Assembly (NCBI GenBank): GCA_017301995.1 | Contig: JAFLEH010000002.1 | Location: 160,839 to 224,838, forward strand | Direction: 5' to 3' | Length of the DNA: 64,000 bases | From: Verrucomicrobiota bacterium | Lineage (GTDB): Bacteria; Verrucomicrobiota; Verrucomicrobiia; Verrucomicrobiales; Akkermansiaceae | Notes under the pieces: model-generated | What the model saw: only the letters and a program-made list of their open reading frames with translations | Databases searched by the model: none | Told to the model about the DNA's origin: nothing | Shown here: piece after piece, positions 973 through 9,770 of the stretch | Position numbering within the stretch: position 1 is the first letter of the stretch | Layout of the letters: each line of letters begins with the position of its first letter | Position numbers and translations under genes: made by a program

Positions 973-3900
973 TCACCCCACTTCCCGGTAGCCTTTTTTG
1001 AGTTTCTCCGCGATGAGTTTGGCGGTTTCGCGGGCGGCGCGGTGGGCGTCAGGGAACGAGCGCGTTTGCCGCTGGCCGGTGGTGCCGATGCGGCCGAAGG
1101 CGACGGTCATTTCAACGTCGCTCACCGCGATTTCCCAGAACTTTCTGGATCCGCCGCCCACGAATTCGAATCTTCTAACCGAATTCGGCCCGACAGTGGG
1201 CTGCGGCGTGGGTGGGGTCTCCCCGGATGGGGGGAGAGGCGACGGGCGCGCTTCTTCCCCGGCCGGAATTTCTCCCGCACCCGGTTCCTCCACGGGAGGT
1301 TCCTCCTCCGATGCTTCGTTGCGCAGGACCCGTTCGATCCGATCAATGACGGATTGCGGCTGGTGCCACCAGTCGCGGGCCAGCACGGTGACCACCTTCC
1401 AACCAAACGCCTCCAGCACGGAGGGCCGGGTGTGAAACCGTTCCAACGCTCCGCCGGAGCCGCCACCATCTATCAAAACAGCCGCCTGATGGTGCGGGGA
1501 ATCCGCCGCACGGATGGCGAGATCGCACCGGAAACGGCTTTGGCCCACTTCCGGCTCCACGATCCATCCGCGGCGGCCTAGCACGGCGGCGATCTGTCCG
1601 GCCACGGGGTTTTCGGAAACAGTTAGCCCGGACTTGCGGGTGTGGGGGTTCAGCGATTCGAGCACGCGCAGGGCGGCGGTCTCGTCACCGCGCGAATGGC
1701 ATTCGGCGTAGTGGAGGAAGTCCTTCAGCGCGCGGGCGCCGTCGTTGTAGTCGTTGGTGATGTCGGTGTGGCGGATGCCGCTGAGCAGGACCATATGTTT
1801 GCGCGCGCGGCTGAAGATCACATTGAGGCGCTTCTCGCCGCCGCGCTGGTTGATGGGGCCGAAGTTCATCAGCATCCGGCCCGTGACATCGCGGCCGTAG
1901 CAGACGGACATGAGAATGATGTCGCGTTCGTCGCCCTGGATGTTTTCGAGATTTTTCACGAACAGCCCGCAGAACTGGCCGTCCTCCTCGCGGGTGTATT
2001 CGGATTCCAGCCGGGCGCCGAAGGCCGGATCGTCCGCACCGAGGGCATCCAGCGCGCGCTCGATTTCATCCTGCTGGGCTTCGCTGAACGCGGCGATGCC
2101 GATGCTCATGCCGCCGGAGGTGTCGAGGAGTTTTCTAACCATCCTGGCGATGGACGCGGCCTCGCCGGGATTGCGGCGGTTGCCGTAGGGCATGTTTTCG
2201 CAACGCACGAAGGACAGCGGTTGCGATAGGATCGCGGGCACGAGGGGATCTGCCCCTTCGGGAGTAGTTAGACAAAGGCCGGCGTCTTTGGGCACGGCGA
2301 GCCGGCGGTCGGGCACGGTGTAGAGTTCGCCGCCGTAGAACGCGGCGTTGCTAAAGCCGATAAGCGCCTCGTGGCGGCTGCGGTAATGCCATGCCAGCAG
2401 GGTGTTGGGCAGGTTGCGCGCACTCTGGGCGAGAAAGCTGTCCGCATCCATCAGCACGCTGACTTTTTCGCCTTCGTCGTCCTCCATCGAGATTTCGTCC
2501 TCATCGCCGCCTCCGGACGCGCTGAAGAATGATGTGGGCGGCAACTGCATTTCATCGCCCACGACGATGACCTGCTCGGCGCGATAGGCGGCGGGCACGG
2601 CCTCCTCCATCGGAATCTGGCTTGCCTCGTCGAAGATGACCACATCAAACGCGGAAGCGTCGAGCGGCAGGGTGTCGGAAACCGAAAGGGGACTCATCAG
2701 CCAGATCGGCTTGAGATCGCGGATCACCTGACCGCTTTCGCCGGCTGCGAGTTCGCGGATGGCCTTGTAGCGCATGGTTTTGCCGAATTCGTGCTCAAGC
2801 TCGCGGCGGCCGGCGTTGTAGGTCTTTTTGAAAACCTTTTCTTCGGCGGTTAGGGCGGATGCGGCCTGGTTGGTGACGCGCAAATGGGCGGCGAAGCGTT
2901 CCTTCGCGCGGTGTTTGATCCATGCGGCGTTGTGTTCCAGCCATTTGGCGTGGGCGGTGGCCACGCGACCGGTCTTGAGGCGGAGCAGGTGGCCGTCGAA
3001 GCGGTGCAGCGATCTATCGGAATGATAGAGAAAGCCCAGCGTCTTGCGGGCGCAGCGGCTTTCGATCTCCTCAGGGCACAGGGCTTCGTCGCGCACGGCA
3101 TGGACGAGCTTTGGAGGGGCGGTAAGGAGGTCGCGCATGGCGGGCAGCATGGCGGGCAGCGCGTCGAGATCCTCGCGCAGGTCGCGGGTGAGGGCGGCCA
3201 GTTCCGTTAGCCCGCGCGATTCCGGTTCGCAGAGGATCGAGGCGAGGTCCGCGCGCAAGGTGGCATAGTCGGGGGCGAGGGCGGCGAGGTCCTCCACAAT
3301 CGCGGCGGCATCACCGGATTCCATGAGTTTCGCGCGGAGCGCGGCGGCCTCCGCGGATAGGTTGGAGTCCTTCGCCACCAGCGAGTCGCGCAGGGCCGCC
3401 GGGTCTTCGCCGATGAATTCGCTGGCGCAGCGGGCGGAGACCGCTTCGACAGCCGCGGCAGCCATGTGTTCGGCGGCGAGTTGGCCGAGAACGGTTTCCC
3501 AGGTGGGTTTGACCGCGTGTTTGGAAAAATCATAACAACGGTCCAGCACCTTGCGCAGCCGCCACCATGACGGCTTGAGGACGGCAAGGAAGCCCTTGCA
3601 TTCCGCTGTCTGGGCGAGCGCGGCGGCGGTGTCCGAGGGGGTGAGCTTCTCGCGCCAGTGGGCGGTGTGGGAACGCGCGGCGTCCAACAATTTCCGGGAT
3701 TTTGCGAATTCACCGCAGAGGTTGGACAGCGCCGCCGATTGGGTGCTGCGCGCATCCAATAAACCTAACAACCCCTTGCGGGCCAGAGGGCGCAGGACGC
3801 AGGCCGCATCGAGCAAACCGCCCACTCCGGACGGCGAATCCAACAAATTCTCGTCCAGTCCGGTGCGTGCCAGAGCATCGCTGAGGTCGGAGAGTTTTTG

Positions 3901-6450
3901 CTCGAGTCCGTCCAGCGATTTCTCCAACAACCCGACGGGTTCGTCGGCTTGGATCACGCGGTCGGCTAAGCGTGAGAAGGGATGGTTCGCGAAGATCGGG
4001 TCCGCGCCGGATTCCTCGAGCGCGGCGGCCAGACGCAGCACCTGGTCGCTTCCGGCAAGCCATTCTCGGTAGTGCGGGAAGGACTCAATCCAATCGGCCG
4101 CAGGGGCGGTTTCGTCATTTCCGGTGGGAATGCCGCGCAGCGCGATGAGCCTCTGATAGAGCGCGGACACGCTCACGCCGGCCTCGTCCGGGACTGAGTC
4201 GAGCTGTGCGGTGAAGTGGTCCAGCGCGTCGAGTTCGCTTTCGAGGGTGGCCAGCGCAGCCTTGCGTCCAGCGACCGAGGGGCATGGGTCGTTGCCGGTG
4301 GCAATCCAGTGTTCGTAGGTCTGGCGGAGATTCCGGATGAATTCGCGTTTGTCGGTTTGCGAGTCGTGAATGAGGCAGCAGAGTTCGTCGAGGCCCTGCT
4401 GGCGCAGGCGGTGGAAGACCACATCAATCGCCGCGCGCTTCTCACAGACGAAGAGCACGCGCTTGCCAAGGGCGGCGTAGTCCGCGATGAGATTGGTGAT
4501 GGTCTGGGACTTGCCGGTGCCGGGAGGCCCCTGGATGATGAAACTTCCCCCGGCGCGGGCGCGGGCAATGGCCCCGGTCTGCGTGGCGTCCGCCGCGATG
4601 ATCAAATGTTGGCCTGAAGCAGGCACGGCCGGAATGGCGGGCGGATCGACCGGTTTCGGATCTAATGAAAAAATGCGGTCAAAGGCGGCGTTTGGCGCGC
4701 CGCTTTCTATCAACTGGTTGTAATCCCGCACCAGGGTCATTTTGCGGTAGTTGAAATTGGCCAGCGTGACCGAACAGAGGTCGAATTCCCAGGCATAGGG
4801 GTTTCCCCGGGTTTCTCCCATCAGTGCGAACATTCCGCGCTCCGGTTCGCCCGCGCCCGGAGCCATTTGCGGCATGCGCGGCACTGGCGGTGCGCCGGCC
4901 AGATCGCGCAAGGGCAGCGGCGAGGGCATCACTTTCGCACGGAAAACCTGTAGCCCCAAGGGGCGGAAATCCGCGGCTTCATAACTGTAGTCCACCACCG
5001 CTTTCCGGCGGGCGCGGCCGGCTTTCGCCAGACGTCGGCGGTATTGGTCCACACGCTGTTTGGCTCGTTCGTGAATCAGTTGGATGCGCGGCTTATCCAC
5101 CAGCGAGAGCGTGACGCCCGGTTCGGTGGCATGGATGGCTGCATGCAGCGCGGCATGGAAATCGGCCGGCGCGACAGCGCGCAAGTCAACGGTTTCCGGC
5201 AGATCGAGGTTGTAGAGTTGTTTGAGGTGATGGCGCAACGCCGGATTCACCTCTGCCTCGGACGATGGCGCCTCAAGCGTGTAGCGGTCCTTCACGCCGC
5301 GCGTCTTCGCCAGTTCCACCGGCAACAGCAGCAACGGCGAGTGAATCCGCTCTTCGGGCGCCTCCCTCAGATTGTTCCAACGCAGGAAACAAACCACCAT
5401 CCGCAACTGCGAGAACCCATACTCCGCGCGGTCGCGCCTGGCCTCGCTGATGAGCTTGTCGAGCTGGCCCGGCAGATAGGGCGCCTCCTCGCAGCGCAGC
5501 CACCGGTTCAAAGGCAGCGTGGCTCCGGACACGACCTCGCGCGCCAGATCCTCGTGCCAGTAAAACAGGGCCGACGGCTTCACATTGCGGTAGTCCAGCA
5601 CCAGCGGCACGCTTGCGACGGTTAGATTGAGCGTGGACTGGGATGTCTTGAAATGGAGCAGACGGTTGCGCCGCGAAATTTCGAACAGGCGGTCGCGCAA
5701 ATGCGTCTGGATCACGGAGCGGCGGGCGGACTTGGTGCCGCCTTCGAGTCCGGGCAATCTGGCGAGATCCACATCCACCGGCTGGTCGCGGTAGGTTTCC
5801 AACCGTTTGACCAGCGAGGGAATGTCCTGCGCCCTGCGGCGGCGGGACAACTCGGTCATTTCCACGATCACCGCGGCCACCACCGGATGCAGCCGCGTGG
5901 CCAGCGCGAACAGGTTGGAACGCGAGTTGGCGAACAGCTCGACATCATCCGCATCGGAAAAATCCAGTCCGCAGGCCAGGCTGGCGAGGATCATGCCGAG
6001 CGAGAGCACATCCGTCAGCTCGTCGTGGTGGCCGATGGCGTGCTCCCAGGTGACATGGCCGGGCAGATAGACCGGGCGCTTGATCTCATCGGTGCTTTGG
6101 CCGACCTCGAGATTGGTGATATCCCGCGAGAAATCGTCCATGCTGGTCGTGCCGCGCAACTCGCCCACCACTTCGATCGCACGGAACGCGGGCGGATCGA
6201 GTTCATGGATCTTCTCCGTGTTGAGCATCCGCTCCCGCCCTCCGTTTCCCTCGCCCAGTGTAAGCGCCAGACCGTCGCGGGCATGGACCGATCCCACGCC
6301 GCGAAGGGGAGCCACACGGCCGGTCTCATGCAGGGCCGCCACCTCGCGCATCAGCGGCAGCACGGCCGCAAGCACATCCTCCGTCTCAAAGCCCCCGCGC
6401 TCTAGGCCGGACCTAACAAACATATCGTAGGCCGGAGGATCACCGCTCAT
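973..6450 (-). CDS. Kinase-like/DUF4011 superfamily 1 helicase with C-terminal nuclease-like and WGR domains
   Basis: 1825 residues. The start at 6450 is chosen because its ATG overlaps the upstream TGA (ATGA) and a strong GGAGGTGA lies at 6455-6462. A start at 6666 would add 72 residues lying inside the M48 gene. Approximate order: residues 10-230, kinase C-lobe-like (DVLSLGMILASLACG resembles helix F), with no glycine loop, HRD or DFG seen; 235-480, DUF4011 (DRLFEISRRNRLLHF); about 640, Walker A GPPGTGKS; about 1270, Walker B FDEAS, then GDEMQLPP; about 1540, helicase motifs QGDERD and LNVIFSRARK; 1610-1710, a Vsr/MTES_1575-like nuclease fold (CDLAI, then LIDGG, then FGWKVVTVLARDWW) whose usual Glu looks replaced; 1750-1825, WGR. 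WGR and COG1112 domains act on nucleic acids. A DNA/RNA-sensing defence or repair role is inferred. It is co-transcribed with the M48-like gene. Confidence 0.85.
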   Translation of the reverse strand: MSGDPPAYDMFVRSGLERGGFETEDVLAAVLPLMREVAALHETGRVAPLRGVGSVHARDGLALTLGEGNGGRERMLNTEKIHELDPPAFRAIEVVGELRGTTSMDDFSRDITNLEVGQSTDEIKRPVYLPGHVTWEHAIGHHDELTDVLSLGMILASLACGLDFSDADDVELFANSRSNLFALATRLHPVVAAVIVEMTELSRRRRAQDIPSLVKRLETYRDQPVDVDLARLPGLEGGTKSARRSVIQTHLRDRLFEISRRNRLLHFKTSQSTLNLTVASVPLVLDYRNVKPSALFYWHEDLAREVVSGATLPLNRWLRCEEAPYLPGQLDKLISEARRDRAEYGFSQLRMVVCFLRWNNLREAPEERIHSPLLLLPVELAKTRGVKDRYTLEAPSSEAEVNPALRHHLKQLYNLDLPETVDLRAVAPADFHAALHAAIHATEPGVTLSLVDKPRIQLIHERAKQRVDQYRRRLAKAGRARRKAVVDYSYEAADFRPLGLQVFRAKVMPSPLPLRDLAGAPPVPRMPQMAPGAGEPERGMFALMGETRGNPYAWEFDLCSVTLANFNYRKMTLVRDYNQLIESGAPNAAFDRIFSLDPKPVDPPAIPAVPASGQHLIIAADATQTGAIARARAGGSFIIQGPPGTGKSQTITNLIADYAALGKRVLFVCEKRAAIDVVFHRLRQQGLDELCCLIHDSQTDKREFIRNLRQTYEHWIATGNDPCPSVAGRKAALATLESELDALDHFTAQLDSVPDEAGVSVSALYQRLIALRGIPTGNDETAPAADWIESFPHYREWLAGSDQVLRLAAALEESGADPIFANHPFSRLADRVIQADEPVGLLEKSLDGLEQKLSDLSDALARTGLDENLLDSPSGVGGLLDAACVLRPLARKGLLGLLDARSTQSAALSNLCGEFAKSRKLLDAARSHTAHWREKLTPSDTAAALAQTAECKGFLAVLKPSWWRLRKVLDRCYDFSKHAVKPTWETVLGQLAAEHMAAAAVEAVSARCASEFIGEDPAALRDSLVAKDSNLSAEAAALRAKLMESGDAAAIVEDLAALAPDYATLRADLASILCEPESRGLTELAALTRDLREDLDALPAMLPAMRDLLTAPPKLVHAVRDEALCPEEIESRCARKTLGFLYHSDRSLHRFDGHLLRLKTGRVATAHAKWLEHNAAWIKHRAKERFAAHLRVTNQAASALTAEEKVFKKTYNAGRRELEHEFGKTMRYKAIRELAAGESGQVIRDLKPIWLMSPLSVSDTLPLDASAFDVVIFDEASQIPMEEAVPAAYRAEQVIVVGDEMQLPPTSFFSASGGGDEDEISMEDDEGEKVSVLMDADSFLAQSARNLPNTLLAWHYRSRHEALIGFSNAAFYGGELYTVPDRRLAVPKDAGLCLTTPEGADPLVPAILSQPLSFVRCENMPYGNRRNPGEAASIARMVRKLLDTSGGMSIGIAAFSEAQQDEIERALDALGADDPAFGARLESEYTREEDGQFCGLFVKNLENIQGDERDIILMSVCYGRDVTGRMLMNFGPINQRGGEKRLNVIFSRARKHMVLLSGIRHTDITNDYNDGARALKDFLHYAECHSRGDETAALRVLESLNPHTRKSGLTVSENPVAGQIAAVLGRRGWIVEPEVGQSRFRCDLAIRAADSPHHQAAVLIDGGGSGGALERFHTRPSVLEAFGWKVVTVLARDWWHQPQSVIDRIERVLRNEASEEEPPVEEPGAGEIPAGEEARPSPLPPSGETPPTPQPTVGPNSVRRFEFVGGGSRKFWEIAVSDVEMTVAFGRIGTTGQRQTRSFPDAHRAARETAKLIAEKLKKGYREVG

Positions 6451-7616
6451 GGCTTCACCTCCGTTTCCTTGAGCCGTTTCAGGTCGCGCACCTTCATTTT
6501 CAACTCCTTCGCCAGCAGTTTCTCCATCACGCCGAGGCATCCGGTTGCGCGCGCGAAGGCGAGGGCGCGGCCCGCAGCCTGCTCCAACGCGTCCGGGTCC
6601 GACGCACAGAAATCCAACATCACCTGGCATCCATACTCGCGCCACGGCGGCGGCAGATTCTCCCAATCCGCAGTTAGAGAGTCATCCGCCGCGTCAGCCG
6701 GACGGAAATCGGGAAAATACGATTTCGCGAGCGCCAGCGCCTCATCCGAACGCGTCCATTCGGGTCGCAAAAGGTGATGCCACAGCCGGCGCGTGAGTTC
6801 AGTAAGGACATCCTGCTGGAGCAGCGTGAGATCGTCGAGACCGTCGTCGCCATCAAGCATCCGGGCGATCTCGGCGTCCAGCGATTCATCCTGCTCGACC
6901 CACAGCTTCAACGCGCGGGCGCGGATGAACGCCTCCGGGTGGGTCAGTCCGGCGGTCTTCGGGTTCGACTTTGCGAAGATCTCATCCGCCTGCGCCAGAT
7001 AGGACGGCGCGCTCACCTGTGCCAGCCCGGTGAGCGATTTCACCAATCCCGAAACCGCTGGTTCCAGGGTGCCGCAGGCGACATAGGCTCCCCTGTCGGC
7101 GAACAATTCGGTCGCCAGCCGCCACAATCGCGCGCTGCGTTCGTGGGACGGGGCCGCCGCCGGATGGGCGGATGCCGCGTCCAGGATGCGGTCCGCGAGC
7201 AGATAGGCCCCGCCCTCGGACTGCCACAGCATATGGTGGGCCAGTTCGTGGCCGATCACCGCGCGCAATTCATCGTGCGTGAGCAGCGAAAGAATGGGAC
7301 CGGAAAACACCAGATGGGCCTCTCTAGGCAGATGGCAAACGGCCGCGTTGGGAAGCAGTCCGCCCTGTCCCTGATAGAGTGCGAGCGTGGTTTCCAGGCC
7401 CAGCGCCGCGCGCGCCGCCTCCGCCTCGCGGAAGACATCGGGATGGCTTTCGGCATCGAGTCGGTAGGTATCCCGAAGCAGCGACAGGCGCACCGCCTCG
7501 GCGTTTTCGGACTCGTCCTCTTTTTGGGAAAACCACTGCCAGACTTCAGGCTCCATGTGGATGAGCCAGTCGGTGAGGGCGAGGTGCTGGGGCAGCGGCG
7601 TTAGATCGCGGTTCAT
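6447..7616 (-). CDS. M48-like zinc metallopeptidase, soluble
   Basis: 389 residues. The HExxH motif is at residues 123-127 (IGHELAHHM), and a downstream TELFADRGA places the likely third zinc ligand at Glu170. This is the gluzincin pattern of M48-type peptidases. Unlike HtpX, Ste24p or BepA/YfgC, no membrane segment or signal peptide is visible, so it is probably cytoplasmic. The C-terminal half (200-389) is helical and not recognised. It is the first gene of a two-gene unit: its TGA overlaps the helicase ATG. A peptidase coupled to a nucleic-acid-sensing helicase suggests an effector activated by the helicase, but this is inference. No good Shine-Dalgarno precedes the ATG. A TTGACC element lies about 40 bases upstream without a convincing -10. 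Confidence 0.75.
   Translation of the reverse strand: MNRDLTPLPQHLALTDWLIHMEPEVWQWFSQKEDESENAEAVRLSLLRDTYRLDAESHPDVFREAEAARAALGLETTLALYQGQGGLLPNAAVCHLPREAHLVFSGPILSLLTHDELRAVIGHELAHHMLWQSEGGAYLLADRILDAASAHPAAAPSHERSARLWRLATELFADRGAYVACGTLEPAVSGLVKSLTGLAQVSAPSYLAQADEIFAKSNPKTAGLTHPEAFIRARALKLWVEQDESLDAEIARMLDGDDGLDDLTLLQQDVLTELTRRLWHHLLRPEWTRSDEALALAKSYFPDFRPADAADDSLTADWENLPPPWREYGCQVMLDFCASDPDALEQAAGRALAFARATGCLGVMEKLLAKELKMKVRDLKRLKETEVKP
6455..6462 (-). promoter_or_regulatory. Strong ribosome binding site deciding the helicase start
   Basis: The minus strand reads GGAGGTGA followed by AGCC and ATG. It lies inside the 3' end of the M48-like gene and fixes the helicase start at 6450. It supports coupled translation through the ATGA overlap. 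Confidence 0.8.
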
Positions 7617-7714: not shown

Positions 7715-7807
7715 CCCGTGCAAGACGGATCTACGCTCCCACCGAATCGCCCGTAGCCATCGCACCGACGGTGGTTCAGGGAGAGATGCAGGACAGCAGC
7801 AGCCAAT
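7715..7807 (+). pseudogene. Decayed copy of the DNA repair ATPase 3' end (direct repeat copy B)
   Basis: One frame reads ESPVAIAPTVVQGEMQD then SSSQ and TAG at 7805-7807. Copy A reads ESPVAIAPTVVQGEMQDAGT and continues. The upstream VQDG block is in another frame because 19 bases are missing relative to copy A, so the copy is broken. It has no start codon and lies between the M48-like gene (minus) and the acyl-carrier-like gene (plus). It could be the displaced original 3' end left when the helicase/M48 cassette entered, or the remnant of an old gene duplication. Confidence 0.8.
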
Positions 7808-7821
7808 AGAAGGCAAAACCC

Positions 7822-8523
7822 ATGGGGCTCGAAGGAGTTGAAATCGTTCTATCATGCGAGGAGGAGTTCTGTGTCGAACTGACCGACTCCGAGGTGGCGA
7901 CGTTTCTGACGCCTCGTGACATGATTGCGTGTATCTGGCGGAAGATCGAGGACAGGGAAACCGGCGATGATCCGTTCTGCCGGACCCAGGCGGCGTTCTA
8001 TCGGCTGCGTCGGGCGATCGTCAGCGCGTGGGAGGTGCCGCGAGTTTCCGTCAGGCCGGGCACACCGGTTGCGAAGTTGCTGGAGAACCACAAGCCCGCC
8101 GACGCATGGCGCAAGCTCGCGTTGGAGTTGGGGCGTGAGGTGCGACCGCGCCTGGTGCCGCCGAAGTGGCCCCGGCGAACGCTCCTGTTGGGTGGTTTTG
8201 GAGTTCCCGTCTGCGGGATTGCGTGGTGCCCTGGGGTGCTTTCCGTGGACATGGCTTGGGTTGTGTTGCCAGTTGGCTTGTTTATGTTCACTGGAATGCT
8301 CTTGATCGCGGCGGAATCGATAGAGAGACGTATATGCCTGAACCTGCCGGATAATCTTCACGTCTCCGATCTGCTACGCTCGGTTCCGGATCAGTGTGGT
8401 CCGGTGTGGACCCGCGAGACAGTGGCAAACGGGGTCCGAAGAATTGTGATTGAGACCTTGGGAACCGACCAGAACCTTTACCATGAGGACGCGGAGTTCG
8501 TGAGAGACCTCGGGTTAGGCTGA
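7822..8523 (+). CDS. Acyl-carrier-like membrane protein (split ACP-like fold)
   Basis: 233 residues. The N-terminus (GLEGVEIVLSCEEEF then LTDSEVATFLTPRDMI) resembles helices II-IV of an acyl carrier protein. Two hydrophobic segments follow at about residues 115-160. The last 35 residues (VRRIVIETLG then DAEFVRDLGLG) resemble ACP helix I and its loop, and end just where DSL would follow. The two halves are therefore in permuted order, and the phosphopantetheine serine position is Gly at the N-terminus and absent at the C-terminus. I recall similar hypothetical proteins in Planctomycetes and Verrucomicrobia but no assigned function. The start is preceded by a weak GAAGG. Its stop lies five bases from the converging GH5 stop. 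Confidence 0.6.
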   Translation: MGLEGVEIVLSCEEEFCVELTDSEVATFLTPRDMIACIWRKIEDRETGDDPFCRTQAAFYRLRRAIVSAWEVPRVSVRPGTPVAKLLENHKPADAWRKLALELGREVRPRLVPPKWPRRTLLLGGFGVPVCGIAWCPGVLSVDMAWVVLPVGLFMFTGMLLIAAESIERRICLNLPDNLHVSDLLRSVPDQCGPVWTRETVANGVRRIVIETLGTDQNLYHEDAEFVRDLGLG

Positions 8524-8528
8524 TCGAC

Positions 8529-9770
8529 CTAACGACGATGCGCCGGTGCTGTGGGCAGGATTTCATCAAACAGCGTGTTCGGCGCGTAGGTTTCCGCAGT
8601 GGTTCGCCATGCCTTCCAATTGGCGCGGATCGTTTCGGCGGAGTCTTTGGTTAGGTCGGGCGTCCGGGGAACCCGGCCTTTGATCGGATTGAGAAGCCCC
8701 CAGCTTTGGGTGCCGGGGTTCTTGTGTTTGCAGGTCCAGACGGTCCAGCTCAGCCCGGCTTCGTTGTAGCGCCGCACACCGTATCGCCATGCCTCGCGGT
8801 CGCCGAACAGGTTGAACTCGCCGATAAACGCTGGCACGTTCCATGCCTTGAACATCTCGCGGGCCGCAGCAACGTCGCTATCAACCCCGGCCATGCGCCC
8901 GGCGGTGTCCTTCGCGTCCCAATGATACCAATGGAACGAATAGATGACATTCTGATAGCCCGCTTCCCGCGGGTCGCGCAGGCTGCGCCAGTCCCAGATT
9001 CCTTCCATGGCGATCACATGGTCGGGATCGACCGACCGGATCGCGTGATAGAGCCGGTGATACATCGCGAGGATCTGTTTGGACTCGGGACCGGCTTGGC
9101 CGCGGGGTGCGGAATTGTTGGGTTCGTTGAGCAAATCGTAGCAAGCCACCGCGGGGTTGTTGCGGTAGTGCTCCGCCACGCGGATCCAGATGTGGACGGT
9201 TTCGGCGAGCTGCGCCTGATTGCTCCAATAGCCGTCCCGACCGCCGTTCTGGTCGGCGCTCCGTGGTAGGAAGGCGTGGAAATCGAGAATGGTGTACATT
9301 CCGCGCCGCCAGGCCTCGCGAACGCACCGGTCGAGACGATGGAAGGCGTCCATCCGCCAGTTGCCGTTATTGTCTATCAAAGTTGAATACCCGAATGGCA
9401 GGCGGACCGCGTTGAAACCGAACTTCTTCAAATGGTCGAGATCCGCGCCGGTGATCCAGTTCTCCTCGTAGGTGGAGATGAGTTCTTCCGCCACGGAGGG
9501 TCCGAAGCGCTTGGCTAGCAACGACCGCACTTCGAAGTCATAGCCGTTGTGTCCGGGATTGGCATCGCGGAGGGTCTTCGAAGTGTCGATGGGGCACATC
9601 CATTCCTGCCATTCCAGCCAACCGCCGAGATTCGCGCCGCGCAGGACGACCGCATCGCCGGCGCCCCGCTCATTACGCAGGACGGTGCCGGCGGTTTTGA
9701 GAAACGGATCTTTCGCGAGGACCGTGGAACACGCGACGATGGCGGATAGAAGAATACGTATGGGCGTCAT
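8529..9770 (-). CDS. Secreted glycoside hydrolase family 5 (cellulase-like)
   Basis: 413 residues with a signal peptide (residues 1-19, ending VLA). It follows the GH5 (beta/alpha)8 pattern: VVLRGANLGGWLEWQEW at the start of the barrel, FNAVRLPFGYS, the acid/base Glu216 in DLLNEPN, and the nucleophile Glu318 in AFIGEFN. GH5 enzymes retain configuration when cleaving beta-1,4-glucans, mannans and related chains; the exact substrate cannot be read here. It starts 19 bases after the GH127 gene stop, so the two are probably one transcript for plant or algal polysaccharide breakdown outside the cytoplasm. Confidence 0.88.
   Translation of the reverse strand: MTPIRILLSAIVACSTVLAKDPFLKTAGTVLRNERGAGDAVVLRGANLGGWLEWQEWMCPIDTSKTLRDANPGHNGYDFEVRSLLAKRFGPSVAEELISTYEENWITGADLDHLKKFGFNAVRLPFGYSTLIDNNGNWRMDAFHRLDRCVREAWRRGMYTILDFHAFLPRSADQNGGRDGYWSNQAQLAETVHIWIRVAEHYRNNPAVACYDLLNEPNNSAPRGQAGPESKQILAMYHRLYHAIRSVDPDHVIAMEGIWDWRSLRDPREAGYQNVIYSFHWYHWDAKDTAGRMAGVDSDVAAAREMFKAWNVPAFIGEFNLFGDREAWRYGVRRYNEAGLSWTVWTCKHKNPGTQSWGLLNPIKGRVPRTPDLTKDSAETIRANWKAWRTTAETYAPNTLFDEILPTAPAHRR

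Follow-up and report, generated by a model that had tools for sequence, protein, structure and literature searches.

The window, by which we mean the whole stretch of 64,000 nucleotides that was analysed, contains a short plus-strand gene that is alone on its strand between minus-strand genes. On one side lie a helicase gene and a smaller gene paired with it, and on the other a glycoside-hydrolase-like gene. The short gene encodes a protein of 233 residues in which we recognise two halves of an acyl carrier protein (ACP) at opposite ends of the chain, and the features of the locus are the following, in window coordinates.

973-6666, minus strand: helicase matching the candidate defence family PDC-S37 (E 9e-200)
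6447-7616, minus strand: smaller gene paired with the PDC-S37 helicase, which reads like an M48-type metalloprotease (HELAHH motif)
7808-7813, plus strand: AGAAGG, putative Shine-Dalgarno-like sequence, by consensus alone
7822-8523, plus strand: whole gene, 233 amino acids plus stop, read as a permuted two-unit pseudo-ACP with a membrane hairpin
7825-7827, plus strand: codon of Gly2, at the position of the phosphopantetheine serine, with the chain break between ACP residues 35 and 36 (profile alignment to 2ehs; codon-open search)
7828-7962, plus strand: terminal unit, second half, with helices II (residues 3-16), III (22-26) and IV (31-47) (NCBIfam match of residues 5-40; AlphaFold2)
7981-8130, plus strand: putative middle unit, first part, with helix I' (residues 54-70) and basic helix II' (92-103) (AlphaFold2; hhalign to the rejoined terminal unit)
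8167-8331, plus strand: transmembrane hairpin, helices 116-135 and 142-170, inserted in the putative middle unit between II' and IV' (AlphaFold2; hydropathy)
8362-8382, plus strand: putative middle unit helix IV', residues 181-187, VSDLLRS (AlphaFold2; aligned with ACP helix IV)
8413-8520, plus strand: terminal unit, first half, with helix I (residues 198-213) and a loop ending FVRDLGLG at the stop (NCBIfam match of residues 199-231; AlphaFold2)
8529-9770, minus strand: glycoside-hydrolase-like gene

The protein begins MGLEGVEIVLSCEEEF and ends EDAEFVRDLGLG, and thereby fits the definition of its family, which starts with M-G-L-[DE]-x-V-E (here MGLEGVE) and stops just after D-[LFI]-G (here FVRDLGLG). 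The start at M-G-L is firm, since the frame is stopped by a TAG at 7807-7809, four codons 5' of the ATG, with no ATG, GTG or TTG in between. An in-frame stop directly precedes the MGL start in relatives as well (L037, L045 and L073), and stops zero to four codons upstream of MGL in many members rule out a missed start or a truncated longer ACP gene.

Searches against the NCBIfam ACP models returned two matches whose halves lie in reversed order: residues 201-231 correspond to positions 4-34 of NF002151 (E 4.7e-8), and residues 5-40 to positions 44-79 of NF002147. Together, the NCBIfam matches of the C-terminal half cover residues 199-231, which is the first half of the ACP model. The scores lie below the curated cut-offs, at 33 bits against 92 for NF002151 and 14.7 bits against 20.8 for PF00550 (residues 5-38 on model positions 34-67), and in a Pfam scan of the protein no model reached its cut-off. 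When we rejoined the halves in silico with the C-terminal one first, the two weak matches (33 bits) gave way to a single contiguous ACP match of 50.3 bits (E 2e-13), still below the curated cut-off. A one-unit relative (L070) treated in the same way scored 78.1 bits with NF002151 and passed the curated cut-off of PRK00982.1-2 (71.9 against 71).

Alignment of the family profile with a solved ACP, 2ehs, places the break precisely. Profile positions 194-225 align with chain residues 3-34 and positions 3-43 with residues 36-76, leaving between the two stretches a single residue of 2ehs, the attachment serine (chain 35), opposite Gly2. Helices in the window chain run II-III-IV ... I, not in the canonical order I-II-III-IV. 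These matches and the predicted helices bear out two proposals of the initial annotation, that the N-terminus begins at the DSL point of an ACP and continues as helices II-IV, and that the C-terminus supplies helix I and stops right before the serine position. We are highly confident that the protein has the anatomy of a circularly permuted ACP, broken at the attachment site and with one half at either end of the chain.

We modelled the protein with AlphaFold2 from an alignment of 44 sequences and obtained a mean pLDDT of 90.3 and a pTM of 0.76, with helices at residues 3-16, 22-26, 31-47, 54-70, 83-86, 92-103, 116-135, 142-170, 181-187 and 198-213. The corresponding values for an 86-residue one-unit protein were 88 and 0.80. 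Foldseek searches with both models placed ACPs at the head of the lists with no E-value below 0.001, a weakness that is expected because the search depends on chain order. The two membrane helices that had been proposed are found at residues 116-135 and 142-170, and the hydropathy of the protein peaks over residues 121-158. The hairpin is missing from relatives of about 180 residues.

With the hairpin set aside, the middle stretch shows the ACP helix order in the AlphaFold2 model (I' at 54-70, II' at 92-103 and IV' at 181-187). Using hhalign, we could align it co-linearly with the rejoined terminal unit over 71 columns, with a score of 24.1 and a pairwise probability of 51%, compared to 13.65 for the best of 150 column shuffles and 10.9 for the reversed profile. 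The middle unit alone has no match in NCBIfam, and a second ACP-like unit would therefore be strongly diverged. Net charge is negative for the terminal half in all 44 alignment rows and positive for the middle unit in 39 of them. With moderate strength, sequence and predicted helices together suggest that residues 54-187 are a second, degenerate and basic ACP-like unit. The description of the fold as split around a membrane segment thus stands insofar as a two-helix hairpin lies between the halves, but the middle would be a degenerate ACP-like unit that carries the hairpin.

The window protein contains no DSL attachment serine, and glycine takes the place of serine in all 44 alignment rows. 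Our first family scan gave Gly2 in 70 of 72 cases, a biased count because the search patterns contained MGL. A further search, of 388 genomes from the same phylum, allowed any of Ala, Cys, Gly, Arg, Ser, Thr and Trp at the second codon; with the returned matches read as loci, Gly2 was present in 14 of 14 family loci (13 genomes, two of the loci, L166 and L180, apparently broken) and Ser in none, and no match with a residue other than Gly at position 2 was a family member. This rules out an artefact of the search pattern as the source of the conservation and upholds the lack of an attachment serine in the window protein as in each of the 14 loci from its phylum. At the other end, the chain stops exactly two residues past the G of DxG in 66 of 83 proteins. 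Conservation of Gly2 and of a stop after DLG, on which the initial annotation had asked for a family alignment, is borne out in the main family, where most members end in DLGx(D/G), whereas derived Bacteroidota groups differ. A profile search in Bacteroidota recovered two members with Gly2 (L122 and L128) and others (L125 and L129-L133) that keep the permuted two-unit hairpin architecture and have lost Gly2, the acidic helix II and the DLG end; the derived groups also include L127, L134 and L135, with a changed N-terminus. As a separate observation, L180, on the minus strand near a contig end, has a 32-codon ORF that fuses the family start MGLDFVELIMAVEEEF directly to an EFVNDLGAG end and is apparently a deletion remnant.

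A family scan that took one genome per species found members in at least ten phyla, including Verrucomicrobiota, Planctomycetota, Lentisphaerota, Kiritimatiellota, Bacteroidota and Acidobacteriota, with further members in Nitrospirota, Pseudomonadota, Thermodesulfobacteriota, Myxococcota and the Melainabacteria/Obscuribacter group. Distribution is rare and patchy, with 13 of 388 genomes in the window's phylum. Relatives in the same order are three proteins of about 180 residues without a membrane segment (L003-L005) and one of 86 residues (L006, the same gene as L070). No relative found carries a complete ACP at either end, an arrangement named beforehand as one that would speak against a split fold; canonical ACPs are separate genes. 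The window's genome holds a single copy, and no close homologue was found in the searched genomes of its genus, as might be expected if the ORF were a chance likeness or broken gene assembled from ACP fragments without function. At least ten phyla share the arrangement together with its invariant residues, and the AlphaFold2 model is confident; the family alignment and permuted matches rule such a reading out, leaving it a negligible probability.

Assigned by length, 15 of 83 family proteins have one unit, 66 have two and 2 have three, and by hydropathy about half of the two-unit proteins and both three-unit proteins have membrane segments. The 86-residue one-unit relatives consist of just the two permuted halves and a short linker. 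The three-unit proteins (L076, 6001-7281, and L077, 6001-7278), a pair spanning Acidobacteriota and Planctomycetota, are about 426 residues long and repeat the middle unit with its hairpin, giving two hairpins each. Unit number changes at least 12 times on the family tree. Two pairs of proteins differ by an excision: L024 (90 residues) equals L005 (178 residues) minus 88 residues, and L059 (89 residues) equals L018 (222 residues) minus the middle unit and hairpin, with the rest 69% identical. The excisions are clean, with an undamaged one-unit permuted ACP remaining, and they show that the terminal unit is maintained in the absence of the middle. Because both halves stay together when the middle is lost, they argue that the halves form one domain.

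Such a domain could also be built between chains, in which case two permuted proteins would form the functional unit as a domain-swapped dimer. In the long forms about 150 residues of sequence separate the halves, and their staying together after loss of the middle is still compatible with inter-chain pairing. However, one-unit relatives (86 residues, AlphaFold2 pTM 0.80) join the halves by a short linker and the middle unit is excised cleanly, both of which suit pairing within a chain, and we consider the swapped dimer distinctly unlikely. A tree of rejoined units and 35 canonical ACPs did not reject a single origin of the permutation (AU p 0.249), in a test that is weak because the alignment has only 80 columns.

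Phage and plasmid collections gave no match for the queries tried. One contig in a viral collection (L203:4001-4700), possibly host DNA, has a permuted two-unit gene closely resembling the one in a Phycisphaerae genome (L058). In Verrucomicrobium sp. BvORR034, a second, frame-broken one-unit copy is found within a few hundred bases of the intact gene (G783:C190:22391-22644, and at the same place in G077).

We clustered the neighbours at about 70 loci and scanned them against Pfam, finding nothing recurrent. No neighbour recurs across clades, which rules out a conserved operon as a clue to function. Several local associations were seen. In Lentisphaerae GWF2_49_21, a one-unit permuted ACP is followed 91 bases on by a canonical ACP with an intact DSL serine (L081:6001-6609). 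Two alphaproteobacterial one-unit genes have a GT2-type glycosyltransferase gene as neighbour, at a distance of about 7-12 bases and with the gene order reversed between the two loci (L052:1529-2556 and L074:5236-6258); the pairing is not carried into a third genome (G789; L162), which has a guanylate-kinase-like gene there instead. Similar SAM-methyltransferase-like genes are near the permuted ACP in an Aquimarina cassette array (L064:3487-4323) and in two Geobacteraceae (L022:6750-7508 and L031:4534-5325), which suggests shared mobile cargo. Flavobacterial copies from different genera (L043, L051, L064, L032, L039, L040, L044, L047 and L060) are mutually close and sit among unrelated small genes. 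At the three loci checked (L043, L051 and L064), the small genes are separated by long attC-like imperfect repeats, and these flavobacterial loci look like an integron-type mobile cassette array.

The patchy distribution, the close flavobacterial copies in arrays of unrelated small genes with attC-like repeats, and the candidate defence helicase adjoining the window copy would all fit an immunity or defence-type accessory protein that travels as an exchangeable single-gene cassette and uses the ACP fold as a mere scaffold. Yet no toxin or defence gene recurs beside the family genes, PADLOC has no match for the permuted protein, and the strict conservation of ACP docking residues would be left unexplained. 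We regard a defence role as unlikely.

The docking residues in question lie in helix II, where positions 4, 7 and 13 are acidic in all 44 alignment rows and L3, V6 and V9 are invariant. We take positions 4, 7 and 13 to correspond to D38, E41 and E47 of E. coli ACP. ACP enzymes recognise their partner by helix II and its acidic residues, and phosphopantetheine has no site on ACP other than the serine. Judged by its sequence, a protein without this serine is predicted to be incapable of phosphopantetheinylation by a PPTase and of acyl transport.

We propose that the two ends would pack together on the cytoplasmic side as a single ACP bundle of four helices, whose chain break falls at the prosthetic-group site. 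The bundle would have no conversion to a holo form and yet would be recognisable via its acidic helix II, which may dock on ACP-dependent enzymes, or on the protein's own basic middle unit, from which a partner would later displace it. Once docked, the pseudo-ACP would block, titrate or tether enzymes, and versions with hairpins would do so at the membrane. For a protein that would be recognised without ever being charged, a docking, decoy or tether function is the most economical reading, and we give this mechanism slightly less than an even chance. Conservation of the acidic residues could in part be inherited from ACP, and no recurrent neighbour gene across clades points to a partner. The derived Bacteroidota without the acidic helix and Gly2 imply that some members can do without the docking face.

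A different use of the same surface would give Gly2 itself the work. After removal of Met, its free amine would receive an acyl or other group from an enzyme docking on helix II, and the protein would thereby be a carrier or sensor that is acylated at its own terminus. This would explain three oddities together: the break exactly at residue 35/36, the invariance of Gly2 although Ala, Cys, Arg, Ser, Thr and Trp were allowed in the search, and the retention of docking residues. On the other hand, no N-acyltransferase recurs among the neighbours, the glycine may merely block phosphopantetheinylation or begin helix II, and derived Bacteroidota groups do without it. We find this quite unlikely, and the fuller version, in which the prosthetic group has been swapped for a chain end whose amine is acylated or sensed by docking enzymes and which the hairpin places at the membrane, improbable. 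Our best overall explanation is a permuted, serine-less ACP acting as a docking pseudo-ACP, with a probability of about 0.5.

Few small proteins are as conserved and as well studied as ACP. To our knowledge, no natural circular permutation of it has been described, we found no publication on one in the open-access literature, and the family is apparently an undescribed one that is widespread in bacteria. With the break at the serine, the glycine fixed and the docking surface kept, it offers a natural experiment in which recognition between ACP and enzymes is separated from the carrying of a cargo. Study of the family could bring to light either a regulator of fatty-acid or envelope synthesis that works as a decoy, or a carrier that uses its terminal amine; the 86-residue one-unit members allow a direct test.

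Three known systems bear comparison. Canonical AcpP (PF00550; NCBIfam PRK00982/TIGR00517) is alike in its helix sequences, in having an acidic helix II and in the DLG loop that precedes the attachment site, and the rejoined halves of the permuted protein score as one ACP. Compared to it, the window protein has its halves reversed, the break at the serine and Gly for Ser; it adds a degenerate second unit and a membrane hairpin, and stays below all curated cut-offs. PP-binding_2 (PF14573, 'Acyl-carrier') weakly matches the N-terminal half of relatives (E 2.7e-4, below the curated cut-off) and, unlike the window family, is not permuted. The third system is that of the protein-binding ACPs, such as the ACP bound to MukB and the mitochondrial ACP of complex I and of the cysteine desulfurase complex, in which the ACP fold serves as a binding partner and whose structures are among our fold-search matches. 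Unlike the window protein, these ACPs retain the canonical order and, as far as is known, the serine with acyl-phosphopantetheine.
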